Shown here piece by piece: positions 15,185 through 40,640 of a DNA stretch of 64,000 nt. Position numbers and translations under genes: made by a program. The stretch spans positions 27,663-91,662 of the forward strand of contig CAMJIL010000002.1 in assembly GCA_946405805.1 (NCBI GenBank), read 5' to 3'. How positions within the stretch are numbered: position 1 is the first letter of the stretch; each line of letters starts with the position of its first letter. A model generated the notes under the pieces. That model had not been told where the DNA came from, did not search any database, and saw only the letters and a program-made list of their open reading frames with translations. This DNA is from an uncultured Prevotellaceae bacterium. Its GTDB lineage: Bacteria; Bacteroidota; Bacteroidia; Bacteroidales; Bacteroidaceae.

Positions 15185-15192
15185 TGGGTAAC

Positions 15193-15256: not shown

Positions 15257-16000
15257 ATGCTTCAATTAAAAAATCTTACCATCGGATATAAAGGCAATGT
15301 GATTGCCAGCAACGTTTCTGCGGAGTTGCAGAGCGGTAGGCTAACATATCTTCTGGGTGTTAACGGTTGCGGCAAGAGTACCTTGCTGCGCACTATGTGT
15401 GGCTTTCTGCCGCCACTGGACGGAGAGATTTTTGTTGGCGACGAGAACCTAAACGATCTGACAGCATCGGAGAAATCGCGAAAAATTAGCATCGTCTTGA
15501 CACATAACGAAGAAGTCCGTGGCATGACGGTGTGGGATGTTGTAGCAATGGGCCGAAGTCCATACACGGGATTCTGGGGTCACCTGACAGACGAAGACAA
15601 GAGGATTATCCGAGAGAGTCTTGATATGGTAGGCATTAACTGTCAACTGTCAACTGTCAACTGTCAACTGTCAATGCTCAACCGACGGATTACTGAGATA
15701 TCAGACGGCGAACGCCAGAAGGTGATGATAGCAAAGGCTATAGCACAGCAGACGCCAGTGATACTACTCGACGAACCGACAGCCTTCCTCGATTACCCCA
15801 GCAAACGCCGTATGTTCAGGTTGCTGACACAGGTGGCAAGAGATTTAAACAAAGCGATACTATTGTCCACACACGACATAGACCATGCAAAGCGCTTTGG
15901 AGACCTTGCATGGATGATGGATAAAGGACAACTGAGATGTTCTTCGTTTGAAGAACTCATAGCAGAAAAGCCCGACTTCTTCTCGTCAGAAGAAGATTGA
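15257..16000 (+). CDS. ABC transporter ATPase, iron/cobalamin-uptake type, lone
   Basis: ATP-binding subunit resembling FecE/BtuD/HmuV-type importers of siderophores, haem or cobalamin. I chose ATG 15257; an in-frame TTG at 15221 would add a low-complexity leader. Walker A is LLGVNGCGKSTLL, the signature ISDGERQ, Walker B VILLDEPTAFLD and the switch His is in LSTHDID. Just before the signature, residues reading INCQLSTVNCQLSM are encoded by a five-unit heptamer array; homologues I recall have a short turn there. No permease or binding-protein gene is adjacent, so the substrate cannot be named. 247 aa. Confidence 0.8.
   Translation: MLQLKNLTIGYKGNVIASNVSAELQSGRLTYLLGVNGCGKSTLLRTMCGFLPPLDGEIFVGDENLNDLTASEKSRKISIVLTHNEEVRGMTVWDVVAMGRSPYTGFWGHLTDEDKRIIRESLDMVGINCQLSTVNCQLSMLNRRITEISDGERQKVMIAKAIAQQTPVILLDEPTAFLDYPSKRRMFRLLTQVARDLNKAILLSTHDIDHAKRFGDLAWMMDKGQLRCSSFEELIAEKPDFFSSEED
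15638..15672 (+). repeat. In-gene heptamer array, 5 x AACTGTC
   Basis: Five exact 7-bp units inside the ABC ATPase gene, followed by a degenerate sixth (AATGCTC). Because 7 is not a multiple of 3, three units restore frame and encode a 7-residue period (NCQLSTV). Addition or loss of one unit would shift the frame before the ABC signature and Walker B. Confidence 0.95.
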
Positions 16001-16028: not shown

Positions 16029-18974
16029 ATGAAACAAACACTCACAAGTCATGTCAACTCGGCTTTGCCGAGGTCAAAAGTCAAAGGTCAAAGGTCAAAG
16101 GTTTTTTACATTTTACATCTTACATCTTACTTATTTGTGCTGTGGCTGGCAGCGTTCTGTACCCCTGTTTTTTCGCAGGAAGCAAAAGGCCTGAATCTGG
16201 CAGAGATTGACAAACAAGTAATTCCCGAAGACACCGCAGTGCGCAAAGGCGTGCTGTCGAACGGACTGACATATTATGTCTGCAAGAGCAACAACCCCGC
16301 AAAGCAGGCATTCTTTTACCTGTTGGTGAAGGCTGGCTCTGTCGTAGAGCAGGACAATGAGCGTGGTATCGCCCACTTCACGGAACACATGATGTTTAAA
16401 GGCACGAAGCATTTCCCAGGCAGTGTGATAAATTTCTTCCGCCGCAACGGCCTGCAGTTCGGTCATGACTCCAATGCCTTTACGGGTTTTGAGACTGTAC
16501 GCTATCAGCTGAATGCCATTCCTGTGGACAACACACTGCTGATGGATTCATGCCTGCTATTGCTTCGCGATTGGGCCGTCGATGCTATTATTGATGCTAA
16601 GGACGTAGAGAGCGAACATAATGTTGTAGTGGAGGAATGGCGTTCCAGAAACATCATATCCTTTGCAGATCAGTTGCAGAAAGATATCTATGGCAACTCT
16701 ATATATGCTAATCGCACGCCCATTGGCGACATGAACATTGTGAAAAACTGCTCGCAACAGTTGGTGCGCAATTTCTATGATCGCTGGTATCAACCCCAGA
16801 ACCAAGCCGTAGTGGTGGTGGGCGACTTCGATCCCGACCAGATGGTGAAAAAGGTAAAGAAGATGTTTGGCGACCGTAAACGTGGCAAGACCATACCACC
16901 TACCCCATCGGTCATTCCCGACACCGAAACACCGAAAACACTGCTGTCTGCTAACAAACAGCAAGCCTTCTGTTCCATCGGGCTGATAACGAGAATGACC
17001 AAGAACCCATTGGCACAGCTTAATACGGTAGGTGGCATGAAGACCGCCATACTACGAGACGAGATAAAGAGGGCGATGGGCAAGAAACTCAACAGTCTCA
17101 AGGCAAAATATGCAGATATTATCAGCGGTGACGTTACAAGATTAGACCTTGCCGACCTTAGCGACAAGCTATGGATATTTGACCTGTCAGCACCTCGGGC
17201 TAATCAATGGCTTCGCACACTGGAGCTGATGGCGAAGCAGGTGGAAGTGATTCGCCGTAAAGGGTTTGGCGATAAATATTGGAAACAGAACCATAGCTTT
17301 ACCGACCCCGAATACAATGCCGACTCTACTGCCATCATCCTTGCTGATACAGCATTTGCAAAAAATGATAATAACGTCAGAAGTTCAGACTATGTCAACA
17401 GATGCATCAATAACTTCTTCTGGGGCGAACCCATCATATCAGACATGGCACGCCAGTTGGCTGAGCGCCATATCAAGAACAATATCACTGCAGACGAGTT
17501 GCGTGAGGAGTTCTGCCGCATGACCAGCGGACGCAATATGCTGATAGGCGTAATGATGACCGACAGCACAACATTGCCTAAGAAAGAAGAAGTGGAAACC
17601 ATGTGGCAACGTGTGAAGCAGATGACCGACGAGGAATTGTCAGAAGTAGAGGTGGAAGAGGCAAAGAAACTGGAGCGTATCAATGTGGACAGCCTCGACA
17701 TCCCCACCATTTCAGGCACTATCGTCAGCCAGAAGGTGCTCAACGACAGCATCAGCGAGGTGATGTTGTCCAACGGCATAAAAGTAGTGTTCATGAAACA
17801 GAAAACTGATGCTGACATGATAAACTTCATGATTCGTCGTCCACAGGGCTTTTCTGCGCTCAACAATGATGACATCCACTACCACGATATGCTGGGCAGC
17901 TGCATCAGGAAATACGAATGCTGGAATGGAGCGACGACAATCAATGTAGAGGGCTTTGACGACAGCTACGACCACTCGGCTCGGTGGATACCAGGCGACA
18001 GCCTAAATGCCTTCAGGGTGGAGTGTACGCTGAAGATGATTTACAAGTCGCTGACTTCGACCGAGGTGGACTCCGTAGAGTTTGCCGAGCATAAGCAGAG
18101 ACTGCTGGCATCGGCCATCACCACATCAAGCCCCTTGGCGCAGTCGGCATTGAAGGTAAGACTGATGACGAATGCAGAGACAAAACGTCTGATGCCCCCG
18201 TCAGCAGATGAAATCGCTTCGTACAACGTTGACCACTTGCGTGAACTGGTGAAAGAGTACTATTCCAACTACAACGGCTCCGTGATGGTGGTACAGGGTG
18301 ATGTTGGTGCCGACAGCATAATGCCATATATCCTGAAATATATCGGTGCCCTTCCATCGAAGCCCGAACGCGTGAAACGCCTGACGTGGCCTGCTGACCA
18401 TTACAAGACACAGAATACCGTAATGGTAGAGAAGATTGAAACCCCTGCCCCAATTTCTCAGGCCACACTGTTCTACACTTGGGAGAAAGGTTTTGAATAT
18501 ACGCAGCAGACACATGCCCACAACGAAGTGCTGAAGGGCGTGCTTGCCAACCTGCTCCTCCAGACGCTGCGTGTGCAGCATAGCGATGTCTATACCCCCC
18601 AGGTTCTGATGGAAGATGCACTGCTGCCAATACCACACATGAAAATTACCATCTCCTTCGCCTGCAACCCCACCCAGCGCGAACGCATCGCAAAAGATGT
18701 AGAGCAGATAGTGAAGCAGATGGCAGAGGGTGACCTCATCACTTGGGAGCTGATAGAAAGCTACCTCAAGACGTACGCAAGGGCGAATGCCAACTATAAG
18801 GGAAATGAATATACCCGTCGCCGCAACTACCTGACGCAGGAGCTTAACGGCATCGTGACAGAAGGTGTCGGCATGATATACGTCAGTCAGGTAACACCCG
18901 CATCGCTCAAGGCTCACCTCAAGAAACTGCTGACAAAAGGCAACCTGCACATCGGCTACCTAACCACCGAATAA
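16029..18974 (+). CDS. Secreted M16-family zinc metallopeptidase
   Basis: Large pitrilysin/insulinase-type peptidase predicted to be exported. The inverted zinc motif HFTEH is at residues 116-120, with the distal glutamate in the DVESEHNVVVEEW segment; a second M16-type half lacking the motif fills the C-terminal part. 981 aa fits two-half PqqL-like proteins. The N-terminus is unusual: about 26 polar and basic residues precede the hydrophobic core (SYLFVLWLAAFCTPVFS), and this leader is encoded by a short palindrome and two heptamer arrays. It follows the ABC gene by 28 nt. Substrate unknown. Confidence 0.88.
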   Translation: MKQTLTSHVNSALPRSKVKGQRSKVFYILHLTSYLFVLWLAAFCTPVFSQEAKGLNLAEIDKQVIPEDTAVRKGVLSNGLTYYVCKSNNPAKQAFFYLLVKAGSVVEQDNERGIAHFTEHMMFKGTKHFPGSVINFFRRNGLQFGHDSNAFTGFETVRYQLNAIPVDNTLLMDSCLLLLRDWAVDAIIDAKDVESEHNVVVEEWRSRNIISFADQLQKDIYGNSIYANRTPIGDMNIVKNCSQQLVRNFYDRWYQPQNQAVVVVGDFDPDQMVKKVKKMFGDRKRGKTIPPTPSVIPDTETPKTLLSANKQQAFCSIGLITRMTKNPLAQLNTVGGMKTAILRDEIKRAMGKKLNSLKAKYADIISGDVTRLDLADLSDKLWIFDLSAPRANQWLRTLELMAKQVEVIRRKGFGDKYWKQNHSFTDPEYNADSTAIILADTAFAKNDNNVRSSDYVNRCINNFFWGEPIISDMARQLAERHIKNNITADELREEFCRMTSGRNMLIGVMMTDSTTLPKKEEVETMWQRVKQMTDEELSEVEVEEAKKLERINVDSLDIPTISGTIVSQKVLNDSISEVMLSNGIKVVFMKQKTDADMINFMIRRPQGFSALNNDDIHYHDMLGSCIRKYECWNGATTINVEGFDDSYDHSARWIPGDSLNAFRVECTLKMIYKSLTSTEVDSVEFAEHKQRLLASAITTSSPLAQSALKVRLMTNAETKRLMPPSADEIASYNVDHLRELVKEYYSNYNGSVMVVQGDVGADSIMPYILKYIGALPSKPERVKRLTWPADHYKTQNTVMVEKIETPAPISQATLFYTWEKGFEYTQQTHAHNEVLKGVLANLLLQTLRVQHSDVYTPQVLMEDALLPIPHMKITISFACNPTQRERIAKDVEQIVKQMAEGDLITWELIESYLKTYARANANYKGNEYTRRRNYLTQELNGIVTEGVGMIYVSQVTPASLKAHLKKLLTKGNLHIGYLTTE
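16058..16126 (+). repeat. Palindrome plus two heptamer arrays in a signal-peptide coding region
   Basis: In order: a perfect palindrome CTCGGC-TTT-GCCGAG (16058-16072), four units GTCAAA[A/G] (16073-16100) and three units TTACAT[T/C] (16106-16126). All lie within codons of the M16 peptidase leader. Changes in unit number would shift the frame ahead of the whole enzyme. Confidence 0.9.
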
Positions 18975-19082: not shown

Positions 19083-25943
<6,861 letters not shown>

Positions 25944-32493: not shown

Positions 32494-32530
32494 AAAGTAC
32501 AGAGAGAAGAATAATTATGCATTGTGAATT

Positions 32531-33970
32531 ATGAATTTTGAATTGATTAACAACTACGACATAGAGGATCCTGGCTTCGCCCTGCTCCGTGAAGTAGCAC
32601 AAAAATACTGTCCGGAGGAATTTCAGGAACAGCGCAAGGAGTTCTTCCCCTTGCCTGATGAAGAGCTGAATCTCTCTGCAATAGAGAGCAGCGAACCGTT
32701 CGGCATCGGCATTCCTGAGACTCACAAGCTGGAGGACCTGCACTACGAAGAGGCTGACACTCTGAACTCCGACCAGATAAAGCGCGACTTCCCGGTATTG
32801 CAGCAGAAGGTGAATGGCCACGACCTCGTGTGGTTGGACAATGGTGCAACAACGCAAAAGCCTAATCAGGTAATCGACAAGATTTCTGATTACTACCGCA
32901 CGTACAACTCCAACATACATCGCGGAGCACACACTCTGGCAGCGCGTGCAACAGATGCTTATGAAGAGGCGCGTGAGAAGGTGCAGCGTTTCATCAATGC
33001 CGCAACAAGCGAAGAGATAATCTTCGTACGAGGCACTACAGAGGGCATCAACCTCGTGGCACAGGCTTACGGAAGACAATTCCTGACACCTGGCGACGAG
33101 GTGATAGTATCGGAACTGGACCACCACGCAAACATCGTACCTTGGCAGCGTGTATGTCAGGAACGCGGTGCTACGTTGAGGGCTATACCGACGGACCAGA
33201 ACGGAGACCTTATCCTCTCGGAATTTGAACGCCTCATAACACCTCGTACACGATTCGTTTCTGTAGGACATGTAAACAATACCTTCGGCACTATCAACGA
33301 TGTGCAACGCATCATAGACATTGCCCACTCACACCATATTCCGGTGCTGATAGACGGAGCACAGTCGATTGCCCACACACCTGTTGACGTACAGAAACTG
33401 GGAGCTGATTTCTTTGTATTCAGCGGTCACAAGATTTACGGTCCTAACGGCATCGGTGTAGTATATGGTCGCAAGGAGCTGCTCGACAAGATGCAGCCTT
33501 GGCAAGGCGGTGGTAACATGATTAAGGATGTGACCATCGAACGCACAGAGTATAATGAGCCACCGGCACGTTTCGAGGCTGGCACACCAAATGTGGCTGA
33601 TGCCATCGGTTTGGGAGCGGCACTCGATTACGTAAACCATCTCGGCATCCGTAATATTGAACACCATGAGCACCAGCTCACAGAGTATGCACGCGAACAG
33701 CTGGGACAGATTCCGGGCTTGACGCTCATTGGCAACCCAAAGAACCGCGTTTCGGTAGTTAGCTTCGTTCTCGACGGCATACCAGTGCCCGAGGTGGGTA
33801 CTCTGCTCGACAAGGAAGGTATCGCAGTACGTGCCGGTCACCACTGCGCACAACCTGCCCTGCGTGCTCTGGGGTACGAGATGAGTGTTCGGCCAACATT
33901 TGCTCTGTACAACACGCGCGAAGATGTTGATAAGTTAGTAATAGCTGTAAAAAAGATTATAGGAAGATAA
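32531..33970 (+). CDS. SufS-like cysteine desulfurase with N-terminal extension, predicted encapsulin cargo
   Basis: Class V PLP enzyme that takes sulfur from cysteine as an enzyme persulfide. The PLP lysine is Lys301 (VFSGHKIYGPNG), His198-His199 (ELDHHAN) and Asp275/Gln278 (LIDGAQS) line the cofactor, and the catalytic cysteine is Cys439 (RAGHHCAQPALRAL). The SufS-like body starts near residue 80 (DQIKRDFPVL). The first 75 or so residues are an acidic, probably disordered extension (YDIEDPGFALLREVAQKY…LPDEELNLSAIESS), the kind of cargo-loading segment known for family 2 encapsulin desulfurases. It follows the shell gene by 37 nt. No sufBCD genes are nearby. Confidence 0.92.
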   Translation: MNFELINNYDIEDPGFALLREVAQKYCPEEFQEQRKEFFPLPDEELNLSAIESSEPFGIGIPETHKLEDLHYEEADTLNSDQIKRDFPVLQQKVNGHDLVWLDNGATTQKPNQVIDKISDYYRTYNSNIHRGAHTLAARATDAYEEAREKVQRFINAATSEEIIFVRGTTEGINLVAQAYGRQFLTPGDEVIVSELDHHANIVPWQRVCQERGATLRAIPTDQNGDLILSEFERLITPRTRFVSVGHVNNTFGTINDVQRIIDIAHSHHIPVLIDGAQSIAHTPVDVQKLGADFFVFSGHKIYGPNGIGVVYGRKELLDKMQPWQGGGNMIKDVTIERTEYNEPPARFEAGTPNVADAIGLGAALDYVNHLGIRNIEHHEHQLTEYAREQLGQIPGLTLIGNPKNRVSVVSFVLDGIPVPEVGTLLDKEGIAVRAGHHCAQPALRALGYEMSVRPTFALYNTREDVDKLVIAVKKIIGR

Positions 33971-35078: not shown

Positions 35079-35477
35079 ATGAAAATACCACAAAACATAA
35101 TTGATGAATTGATCAGCCAGGCTCAGCAGGACGCGCCGAACGAAACGTGCGGCTACCTGCTGGGCACTAGCTCAGAGGATGCTGACATCGTAACAGAAAA
35201 CTACGAGATGGAGAATATAGACCATTCACCGGAACATTTCTCGTTTAATCCGAAAGACCAATTTGCGGCACTGAAGTATGCTCGCTCCAAGGGACTGAAG
35301 ATTCTTGCCAACTGGCATAGCCATCCTGCGTCACCATCACGTCCGTCACAGGAGGATATCCGTCTGGCTAACGACCCGACAATACGTTATGCCATCCTCT
35401 CCCTGCACGATGGCATACACCTGAATTCTTTCAAGATTATCAACGGTGAAATCGTTGACAAAGAAGTACATTTATGA
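35079..35477 (+). CDS. JAMM/Mov34 metalloprotease (Mec/HcyD-like)
   Basis: 132-aa zinc isopeptidase with a complete JAMM motif: Glu22 (NETCGYLLG), His80-x-His82, Ser90 and Asp93 (HSHPASPSRPSQED). Related proteins release cysteine (Mec with CysO, Mycobacterium) or homocysteine (HcyD with HcyS, Wolinella) from a carrier and can trim carrier tails. Here it would act on the ThiS-like protein encoded two genes upstream. The spacer before it is made of ACTTTTG-type heptamers. Confidence 0.9.
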   Translation: MKIPQNIIDELISQAQQDAPNETCGYLLGTSSEDADIVTENYEMENIDHSPEHFSFNPKDQFAALKYARSKGLKILANWHSHPASPSRPSQEDIRLANDPTIRYAILSLHDGIHLNSFKIINGEIVDKEVHL

Positions 35478-35598
35478 TAATTGATAATTGATAATTGACA
35501 ATTGATAATTGACCTTTGACCTTTCTTGCAGTCGGGCGTACAAACCCTTTGTGCAAGCGGACAAGCCGAGCGGACCTTAGACCTTTGACAAAAAAATT
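35478..35598 (+). repeat. Spacer with TAATTGA heptamers and a CTTGCA/TGCAAG stem-loop
   Basis: Heptamer arrays (TAATTGA-type, then GACCTTT-type) flank a stem-loop with arms CTTGCA (35525-35530) and TGCAAG (35552-35557). This is the array-plus-palindrome layout seen elsewhere in the window. No T-run follows the stem, so it is not a clear terminator. Confidence 0.7.
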
Positions 35599-38189: not shown

Positions 38190-40640
38190 TTAATATATTG
38201 AAATTTTACGTCCTTTGTGGATATAGATGCCTTTCTTAGTTGGCTTGCCTTGGAGCAGACGGCCCTGCATGTCGTACCAGCCCGTTGCACCAGCATCATT
38301 ATGCATTATGAATTCTGAATTATGAATTAAAGGTATCTCCGTCGGGTCATCAACCTCAATCATCCATGTGGTCAGGCAGAAGTAGTCCCTCTTGTCTATG
38401 CTGTGGAAGTCGTTGGCGATGAATATGTCAAAGAGGTACGCGCCTGACTCCAGATGTTCGGGCAGGTGGATTAAGGTTGTATTATATGTGCCGCTGATTA
38501 TCTGACATTTAGAGTAGAGTGTTTCTGTTTCGGGTAATACAGGTTCGGGGGTGCCCTCATCATTGAGTTTGTATAAATCAATCTTCAACACGGCGTCATA
38601 GTCCATCGGTGTACCATTGCCCAAGATTACCCCTATGACATAATCGGGATTACCCTTCTCGTCGGTTCCCTCGGCGTACCTTGCGCCCAGACATTCGAAG
38701 GCCAGTCTATCGAAGGCTGCAATCTTATGCCCTAAATATCCAGACACCTGGTTGATATCGGCTACGTCAGTGCCAATGATGTCATTAATGTTGGGATTTT
38801 TTGCTATCAGGAATACATAGTCGCCAATCCACGGAACGGACATTTTGAAGGATACGTCAGCCTTGCCTCCAGCTTCAATCACGGCTCTGGTTTTTGACAT
38901 GGTAGCAATATCTATCAGTTTGCCGTCCTCCACATAAAAGGCGCAGCATCGCAAGTCTCCGATAAAGTCATCGGCTGCTGCATTATTGCGGATGGTTGCA
39001 TTGACGGTTTGGGCTATATTGCATTGTTTCATACCCTTAATCTCAATGCCTGCAGAGGAGGATGTGAGCTGGGGTTGCGGATGAATTATCAGGTCGGTTA
39101 CTTCACCTCCATCTCCTATATTGACCTCTATGTAAGAGCTGGGGCCATAAACGGGTTTCCATGGGGCAGTAGTGCCGCTTTCACGGCTTACAAACATCAG
39201 TTTGTGATTGCCGGAAGAAAGGTTGCTGAATAAGTTTTCGGTGAGCGGGAAAAACACTACTCCAATATTATCATTACTGAATTTTACATAGTCGTAGCCA
39301 TCAACCTCATAATCATCGGTGTAACAGATGCTGCTCAGGTCAGGCGTAGCGTCATCATTGCGCTCAGCCAGACCAACGGTGAAGACACCGGGACGGTATG
39401 ATGAATTAACCATAAGGAACTCATCTTCAATATCTCCATCTTTGACATCCCACCCAAGGCCGTAAATATATCGATGGAACTTCTTTGATGGGTCTCGCAG
39501 CGGTTGCAGACCGATGAGTGCACTTTGACCTATATTGAAACCATCATCTATACTGGTAACGCCTGTGCCACCTGTACTGGGGTTGAGCAGGTTGATTTTG
39601 TAGAAGCCGTCGTCACCGCCGTTCCAGCCCCAGTTCACGTGGAAATAGCCTTCACCATCCTGCACCTCATAGCCGTCAAGGACAAAGGCATGGCCACCCA
39701 TGGCGCCAGATCCGCCATAAAGCACAGGTCTTTTCTCGTGGAGCTCATTGTAGAGTAGCTCATCCCACTCACTCAACGAATAGTCGGTAGGTATTGCGCG
39801 ATATGCATCAGGATCGTAACCGAAACTATTGGCAAGGAGGTCGGTGTCGTAGAAGATTCCATAAGAGATATCTGGCGAATAATCCATTTGTATCGACTGC
39901 CCGCAGTAGCGCATGAGCAGGGCTACGGCATTCTGTTGTTCCTCAGTGGTGGACACGAAATAGTCGTCCATCATATTGTCCCAGTCGAACGTTGTAACAG
40001 GCAATGCGTCTATAATACGACCATCACTCATCGTATATGCTGGTAATTCATTTGCCATCTCCCCTTGTGGCCAACGGTGATAGTTCATCACCTGGGCCAG
40101 AGCCGTGGCCATACAGCCGGTGACGCATAGTTTGCCATCAGTCTCGGGGCAGTAAGCATTGTATGGTTTCTCCGGATCGTAGGTATTTGAACCCTGTCCC
40201 CACTTGGTTGTCAACATAGGGGCAATGTCGTTGTGTGTCGGCACGCTTGTCGCCTTGACACCGAGGTCTTTGAGACGGGCGATGGCTCCTGCCGTCGTAT
40301 TGAGCCACCACTGCATATTTTCAGGAACTGACGTGGCATCAAAACTACCATTGTCGGTATATCCCAGCACGAGGTTGTCGCCTACGCAGTCGTCACCGCT
40401 CACGATAACAAAACCATCACCGGAATTAATGTTAAACACATAAAACTCCTTTTGTGCCTCCACGGCAGTAAGTTTCGCACCGTCGGAGCGTTGTGCACTT
40501 CTCGCAGACGATGTGTTACCCTTCATTGAAAAAAGAAATTTAGCTGCCTTTTCACGAGCCTCACTCTCAGTGACAGGCGCTGCTACCGCCGTCAATACAT
40601 AACTAAGGACGGCAACAAATATCAACAATACTTTTTTCAT
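38190..40640 (-). CDS. Secreted C10 cysteine protease (streptopain/interpain-like) with C-terminal sorting domain
   Basis: I chose the ATG at 40640 (MKKVLLIFVAVLSYVLTAVA, a typical signal peptide); an upstream ATG at 40667 overlaps the previous gene. An N-terminal Spi-like propeptide is followed by the peptidase domain, with the catalytic Cys in CVTGCMATALAQVMNYH and the His in GGHAFVLDGYEV, then NWGWNGGDDGFY. A long beta-rich region and a C-terminal GWYDMQGRL…KGIYIHKGRK segment, typical of type IX secretion, end the 816-aa protein. The linker before that domain (IHNSEFIMHND) is encoded by an AATTCATAATTCAGAATTCA repeat. Probably a surface or secreted protease. Confidence 0.9.
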   Translation of the reverse strand: MKKVLLIFVAVLSYVLTAVAAPVTESEAREKAAKFLFSMKGNTSSARSAQRSDGAKLTAVEAQKEFYVFNINSGDGFVIVSGDDCVGDNLVLGYTDNGSFDATSVPENMQWWLNTTAGAIARLKDLGVKATSVPTHNDIAPMLTTKWGQGSNTYDPEKPYNAYCPETDGKLCVTGCMATALAQVMNYHRWPQGEMANELPAYTMSDGRIIDALPVTTFDWDNMMDDYFVSTTEEQQNAVALLMRYCGQSIQMDYSPDISYGIFYDTDLLANSFGYDPDAYRAIPTDYSLSEWDELLYNELHEKRPVLYGGSGAMGGHAFVLDGYEVQDGEGYFHVNWGWNGGDDGFYKINLLNPSTGGTGVTSIDDGFNIGQSALIGLQPLRDPSKKFHRYIYGLGWDVKDGDIEDEFLMVNSSYRPGVFTVGLAERNDDATPDLSSICYTDDYEVDGYDYVKFSNDNIGVVFFPLTENLFSNLSSGNHKLMFVSRESGTTAPWKPVYGPSSYIEVNIGDGGEVTDLIIHPQPQLTSSSAGIEIKGMKQCNIAQTVNATIRNNAAADDFIGDLRCCAFYVEDGKLIDIATMSKTRAVIEAGGKADVSFKMSVPWIGDYVFLIAKNPNINDIIGTDVADINQVSGYLGHKIAAFDRLAFECLGARYAEGTDEKGNPDYVIGVILGNGTPMDYDAVLKIDLYKLNDEGTPEPVLPETETLYSKCQIISGTYNTTLIHLPEHLESGAYLFDIFIANDFHSIDKRDYFCLTTWMIEVDDPTEIPLIHNSEFIMHNDAGATGWYDMQGRLLQGKPTKKGIYIHKGRKISIY

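Follow-up and report, generated by a model that had tools for sequence, protein, structure and literature searches.

The window analyzed here is a 64,000-nt stretch of DNA from a Prevotella-like MAG (1.93 Mb, 72.8% complete) whose nearest genomes are rumen Prevotella MAGs. At its center for this study is an M16 peptidase gene whose leader contains a palindrome and two 7-bp arrays, a layout that can be compared with an NRPS gene, an ABC ATPase gene and a spacer in the same window. The features are as follows, with window coordinates and strand.

15638-15674, plus strand: coding array of five AACTGTC units (NCQLSTVNCQLS) in an ABC ATPase gene, within the loop that precedes the signature motif; in three relatives this position holds different sequence, of 37, 76 or 88 nt
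16029-18974, plus strand: M16 peptidase gene with the rewritten leader, 981 aa (PF00675 and PF05193)
16048-16130, plus strand: inserted module, 83 nt where relatives have 5 nt (net +78 nt, or 26 codons); orthologues read CACTCACAA-AYTTY-TTATTGATGCTGTGG
16058-16072, no strand assigned: H1 palindrome CTCGGC-TTT-GCCGAG (CTCGGCTTTGCCGAG); the minus strand, GAC-CTCGGCAAAGCCGAG-TT-GAC, is the H1 family form
16080-16102, plus strand: 7-bp array GTCAAAG (GACCTTT on the minus strand), coding for VKGQRSK, the basic n-region
16106-16130, plus strand: 7-bp array TTACATC, coding for YILHLTSY, which lengthens the hydrophobic core
19083-25943, minus strand: NRPS gene of 2286 aa with C-A-T modules, a terminal reductase and five coding arrays (from Pfam, the array peptides NCQLSTV and NSQLSTL, and orthologue alignment)
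21898-21927, minus strand: H2 double hairpin TTCGACTAGCGAAG-CGGCAAAGCCG-ATTAC inside the NRPS gene, an in-frame insertion relative to orthologues
21928-21954, minus strand: 7-bp array GGTTCAA (GAACCTT), adjoining H2 inside the NRPS gene
25026-25094, minus strand: coding arrays AGTTGAC and TTAACTC in the NRPS gene, exactly 21 nt (three heptamers) shorter in one relative (L233) and absent from most other orthologues
35475-35582, no strand assigned: spacer with mixed arrays and the right half only of H1 (GCCGAGCGGACC from 35565), with no CGGCNNNGCCG

All four close Prevotella relatives, with 87-95% amino acid identity in M16, lack the insert in the leader. The net gain of 78 nt was measured against the two relatives with an alignable leader start (L038 and L040), in which 5 nt separate ATGAAACAAACACTCACAA from TTATT..TGCTGTGG, rather than the 83 nt of the window. 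The palindrome and the GTCAAAG and TTACATC arrays that the original prediction described are all present at 16058-16130 within the 16029-18974 ORF, although the first GTCAAAG copies are imperfect and 16080-16102 is the perfect part. The insert was seen in a single metagenome assembly, and no clear junction signature is left at its site. A partial match to the module, with its parts in the same order, occurs at C12:32701-32776. The remainder of the gene aligns to the relatives without gaps, and its dN/dS against the four relatives is 0.11-0.14 (about 0.13), as under purifying selection. Given this ratio and the gapless alignment, the M16 protein is in use.

Since orthologues carry the uninterrupted leader MKQTLTNFLLMLWLAAF, the module rewrites the signal peptide, as had been proposed. 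The new n-region is basic, comes from the GTCAAAG array and has 24 residues (MKQTLTSHVNSALPRSKVKGQRSK), not the approximately 26 first reported, which is instead the number of residues gained. The hydrophobic stretch is also longer, in part due to the TTACATC array. We predict that export probably continues with this longer and more basic leader. A check of whether translation starts at 16029 or at a later codon had been recommended. Position 16029 is most likely the start, because its ATG, the MKQTLT that it begins and the upstream context are conserved in L038 and L040, as judged from the leader alignment. In-frame TTG at 16065, inside the palindrome, and GTG at 16137 are possible but less likely starts.

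The palindrome in the M16 leader belongs to a family, H1, that is closely tied to 7-bp arrays. The pattern CTCGGCNNNGCCGAG has 10 copies in the window's genome, versus 0 for a reversed-pattern control, and all 10 are within 40 bp of a 7-bp array. The same was true of 10/10 copies in G061, a sister genome that is a close relative rather than an independent replicate, and G105 is the same assembly as G061, so it is no independent replicate either. As background, 3.4-3.6% of positions (3.4% when drawn at random) and, among noncoding ones, 15% were near an array, rates resting on sampled stretches of 404-438 kb. Hence, the association has a P of about 1e-15, or about 6e-9 versus the noncoding rate. 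The genome search suggested with the original prediction, which would have failed had palindromes been no more common beside arrays than elsewhere, therefore returned a strong palindrome-array tie. Arrays do not attract hairpins in general, as 3-nt-loop hairpins other than the CGGCNNNGCCG type were at background (16/561). In congeners with few arrays, the same 15-mer was away from arrays in 28 of the 30 copies examined, and it was almost always a chance coding word. The usual layout of H1 is (GACCTTW)n GAC-CTCGGCAANGCCGAG-NN-GAC CTTW, with a 20-nt unit of GAC-CTCGGC-NNN-GCCGAG-NN-GAC. On our reading of this layout, removing the 20 nt would put the array back in phase.

A single composite repeat element had been envisaged for the M16 leader, the synthetase and the spacer at 35525-35557. 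The layout does recur in the synthetase, where CGGCTTTGCCG at 21903-21913 lies beside the GAACCTT array at 21928-21954. It does not recur at 35525-35557, which has no CGGCNNNGCCG; within the window, CGGCNNNGCCG occurs at 16060 and 21903 and nowhere else. The 35525-35557 spacer also holds a different, imperfect inverted repeat, and at the site matching window 35475-35582 the sister genome carries H1 in near-perfect form (CTTCGGCAACGCCGAG). Thus, the idea of a composite mostly stands, but that of one element does not: there are two hairpin families, and the copies at 16058 and 21903 differ both in their flanks and in their heptamer words (GACCTTW for the first, TTC-ending words for the second). 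The G061 counterparts of window positions 15189 and 15678 have yet another C-rich hairpin class (CCCTCCCCTTGGGAGGGTCGGGG type) among arrays.

The hairpin in the NRPS gene represents the second family, H2, which has a 30-nt form in the window and a 35-nt sister form, in which TTACACCTAAAGGTATAAG is the first hairpin. TTC lies directly 5' of H2 in 18/18 distinct copies, collected from part of a few related genomes, and the right flanks vary. In the relative G060, one H2 copy is an exact 30-nt insertion; the window, G061 and a second G060 copy all have the empty site TTC-ATAACTTAATCG. No target duplication was seen at this filled/empty pair, the one such pair. Overall, H2 sites resemble exact insertions that leave the target unduplicated. 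Together, H2 and its array add a net 14 aa to the adenylation-domain region of the NRPS relative to most orthologues. Elsewhere, at L225:17000-18100 in G061, two H2 copies lie 987 bp apart inside a tandem duplication. The pair encloses no transposase; the small ORFs between them, named by eye, are of nucleotidyltransferase/HEPN-like toxin-antitoxin type.

Heptamer arrays are widespread in this genome. Counting perfect arrays with 2.5 or more copies, 438 kb contained 88 at period 7, compared with 16 at period 6, 4 at period 8, and 0-7 at each period from 9 to 15. Short arrays numbered 68 at period 4 and 30 at period 5, the period-5 number being level with that of shuffled sequence (29). The 95 arrays in 404 kb comprise 43 word classes, against about 90 for chance draws, and the words form a network of near neighbors. 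Intergenic arrays are mostly in tandem, co-directional spacers (59/69), and arrays often adjoin start codons. Only 19 of 93 are inside ORFs, even though ORFs make up 89% of the DNA. Most arrays have no adjoining hairpin and, therefore, hairpins are not needed for arrays. Orthologous sites in sister species often have other heptamer words or none, and array length differs as well. At a broader scale, AGGTCAAx3 occurred in 0/294 other genomes of the order and GACCTTNx3 in 15/200 congeners.

Coding arrays give the same peptides (NCQLSTV and NSQLSTL) in unrelated proteins. The ABC ATPase loop measures 37, 37, 76 or 88 nt across the window and its relatives, with differing sequence but a length that is always 1 mod 3. 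An aminotransferase class-V (SufS-like) gene has its start replaced by an AATTATG-type array at 32513-32544, which appears to supply the ATG; relatives start with MIDLKN. Another array, at 38298-38329, codes for LIHNSEFIMHN near the C-terminus of a C10 peptidase.

A search of the window's own genome, a MAG that is 72.8% complete, did not find Y1_Tnp (PF01797). The sister G061 has a RAYT-type Y1_Tnp gene of 291 aa (NHIH...YIHQNP) at L288:17265-18140 (C4), which matches the Bacteroidetes subclass 2.6 motif given in PMC6006769. This gene is flanked by AACCGTCCCC repeats, with an ACTTTTC run upstream and a TGATCCT array downstream, and by no H1 or H2. We rejected a phage origin of H1 or H2, as the exact patterns were absent from viral contigs, and a known RNA family, as the window contains no Rfam family. 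Our literature search returned no description of such modules in Prevotella.

The hairpin-array inserts behave like Rickettsia palindromic elements (RPE) and REP; the arrays themselves have their closest counterparts in TAACTGA heptamers and Borg repeats. RPE are in-frame palindromic repeats in unrelated functional genes, where their peptides are tolerated (PMC10969869). M16 and NRPS likewise hold a palindromic repeat in frame, but RPE are palindromes of about 150 bp with a conserved ORF/peptide, whereas here hairpins of 15-35 bp accompany variable 7-bp arrays in Prevotella. Like REP with RAYT, H2 is 30-35 bp and lies mostly outside genes but at times inside them; its short flank is fixed and the target is apparently not duplicated (PMC3733652, PMC6006769). 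Its 18 distinct copies also agree with the size and copy number of REP (palindromes of 20-40 bp that are present many times and mainly extragenic). Unlike in REP, no GTAG or CGTC tag was noted in H2, its foot instead reading GTAAT or GTAAC on one strand, and it sits inside heptamer arrays. The RAYT-type gene in G061 has AACCGTCCCC-type repeats rather than H1/H2 at its flanks. The location of H2 3' of a fixed TTC (18/18), with one clean pair lacking duplication, is also reminiscent of single-strand insertion by IS200/IS605, with a putative enzyme.

TAACTGA heptamer direct repeats are found in Beggiatoaceae, Cyanobacteria and some Bacteroidetes (PMC4679880). The arrays described here share their 7-bp units, mainly intergenic location and occasional coding in a stop-free orientation (PMC4679880), but one word dominates TAACTGA repeats, whereas here 43 word classes in 404 kb are mixed with hairpin families. 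Archaeal Borg tandem repeats are likewise fast-evolving, occur in spacers and ORFs, and create new amino-acid repeats (PMC9879509). However, Borgs are extrachromosomal elements of archaea, while the present arrays have a fixed 7-bp period in a bacterial genome. We did not assign these features to the RPE, REP, TAACTGA or Borg class because tested defining features of each were missing.

The explanation we favor, and consider reasonably probable, is that two REP-like hairpin families and slippage-prone heptamer arrays are spreading in operon spacers and are tolerated in genes only if stop-free and in frame. The genome holds hundreds of arrays built from many related 7-bp words, with at least two REP-like hairpin families (H1 and H2) among them. 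Hairpins, with adjoining pieces of array, would be copied to new sites, H2 probably moving by single-strand (Y1/HUH, REP-like) transposition with a putative enzyme. The hairpin elements may insert wherever heptamer words chance to provide a short target. Arrays presumably expand and diversify through slippage in 7-nt steps and through exchange with arrays at other sites. The majority of copies would settle between co-directional genes, and selection would purge genic copies that break the frame or bear stops, such that survivors are in signal peptides, loops and linkers. The M16 leader would then have received one copy of a lineage-specific composite consisting of a GACCTTW-type array, the 20-nt H1 and a second array. 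Insertion, frame, selection on the gene and the tie to arrays are observed directly; the copying is inferred. Counting against this explanation are the lack of a Y1_Tnp hit in the window's own 72.8% complete genome, the different repeats around the G061 transposase, the many arrays with no hairpin beside them, the missing junction signature at M16 and the reliance of the M16 insert on one assembly.

Mutation alone might generate such features if polymerase slippage with a 7-nt preference acted on chance seeds and hairpins arose by local template switching, with no movement between sites. Both the network of near neighbors formed by the 43 word classes among 95 arrays and the different words carried by sister species at the same site are compatible with this process, and in many bacteria no long tandem repeat is more frequent than the heptamer, for which the polymerase footprint is a proposed cause (PMC4679880). 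Nevertheless, we regard this explanation as unlikely, given that identical hairpins and flanks recur at unrelated loci and in sister species, and that 43 word classes are far from the approximately 90 of chance draws. It also fits poorly with the exact 30-nt H2 insertion caught in G060 and with the M16 site having gained a multi-part module absent from all relatives.

Alternatively, the arrays and hairpins could be sites for regulators that bind RNA or DNA, or the coding arrays could be phase-variation switches of the M16 gene through the number of 7-bp units. Arrays do crowd co-directional spacers, often beside start codons; gain or loss of one unit shifts the frame; and MacGregor proposed translational control for TAACTGA repeats (PMC4679880). 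Yet orthologous sites do not conserve the word, length or presence of arrays, the strand bias of arrays with respect to genes is not significant (37 vs 22, P 0.07), the coding differences seen preserve the reading frame (a 21-nt change, and loops of 37, 76 and 88 nt that are all 1 mod 3), and the window is without any Rfam family, making a functional role of this kind quite improbable. Highly implausible is an artefact, whether a true start after the module (e.g., at TTG 16065 within the palindrome or GTG 16137) or an assembly error in the one MAG with the M16 insert, as the ATG at 16029 and MKQTLT codons match relatives without the module, the reading frame is preserved across the module from one conserved part to the next, the basic n-region would be lost with a start at 16137, and similar modules exist in independent assemblies.

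Heptamer arrays might also be landing platforms and carriers for tiny hairpin transposons, with TTC-ending words recruiting H2, GAC-bearing words recruiting H1, and hairpin and array traveling as one mobile unit, a proposal that we put forward tentatively and with some doubt. If true, mobile hairpin-array units would steadily supply new protein segments, such as signal-peptide extensions. The M16 leader offers a case of noncoding repeat DNA caught becoming protein in a housekeeping-type gene, with near relatives providing the empty sites. Heptamer arrays and REP-like palindromes, usually treated apart, are thereby linked in a manner that makes their relation testable. The coding arrays also account for odd peptides (NCQLSTV and NSQLSTL) that turn up repeatedly in Prevotella proteins of no relation to one another, a potential source of misleading annotation.
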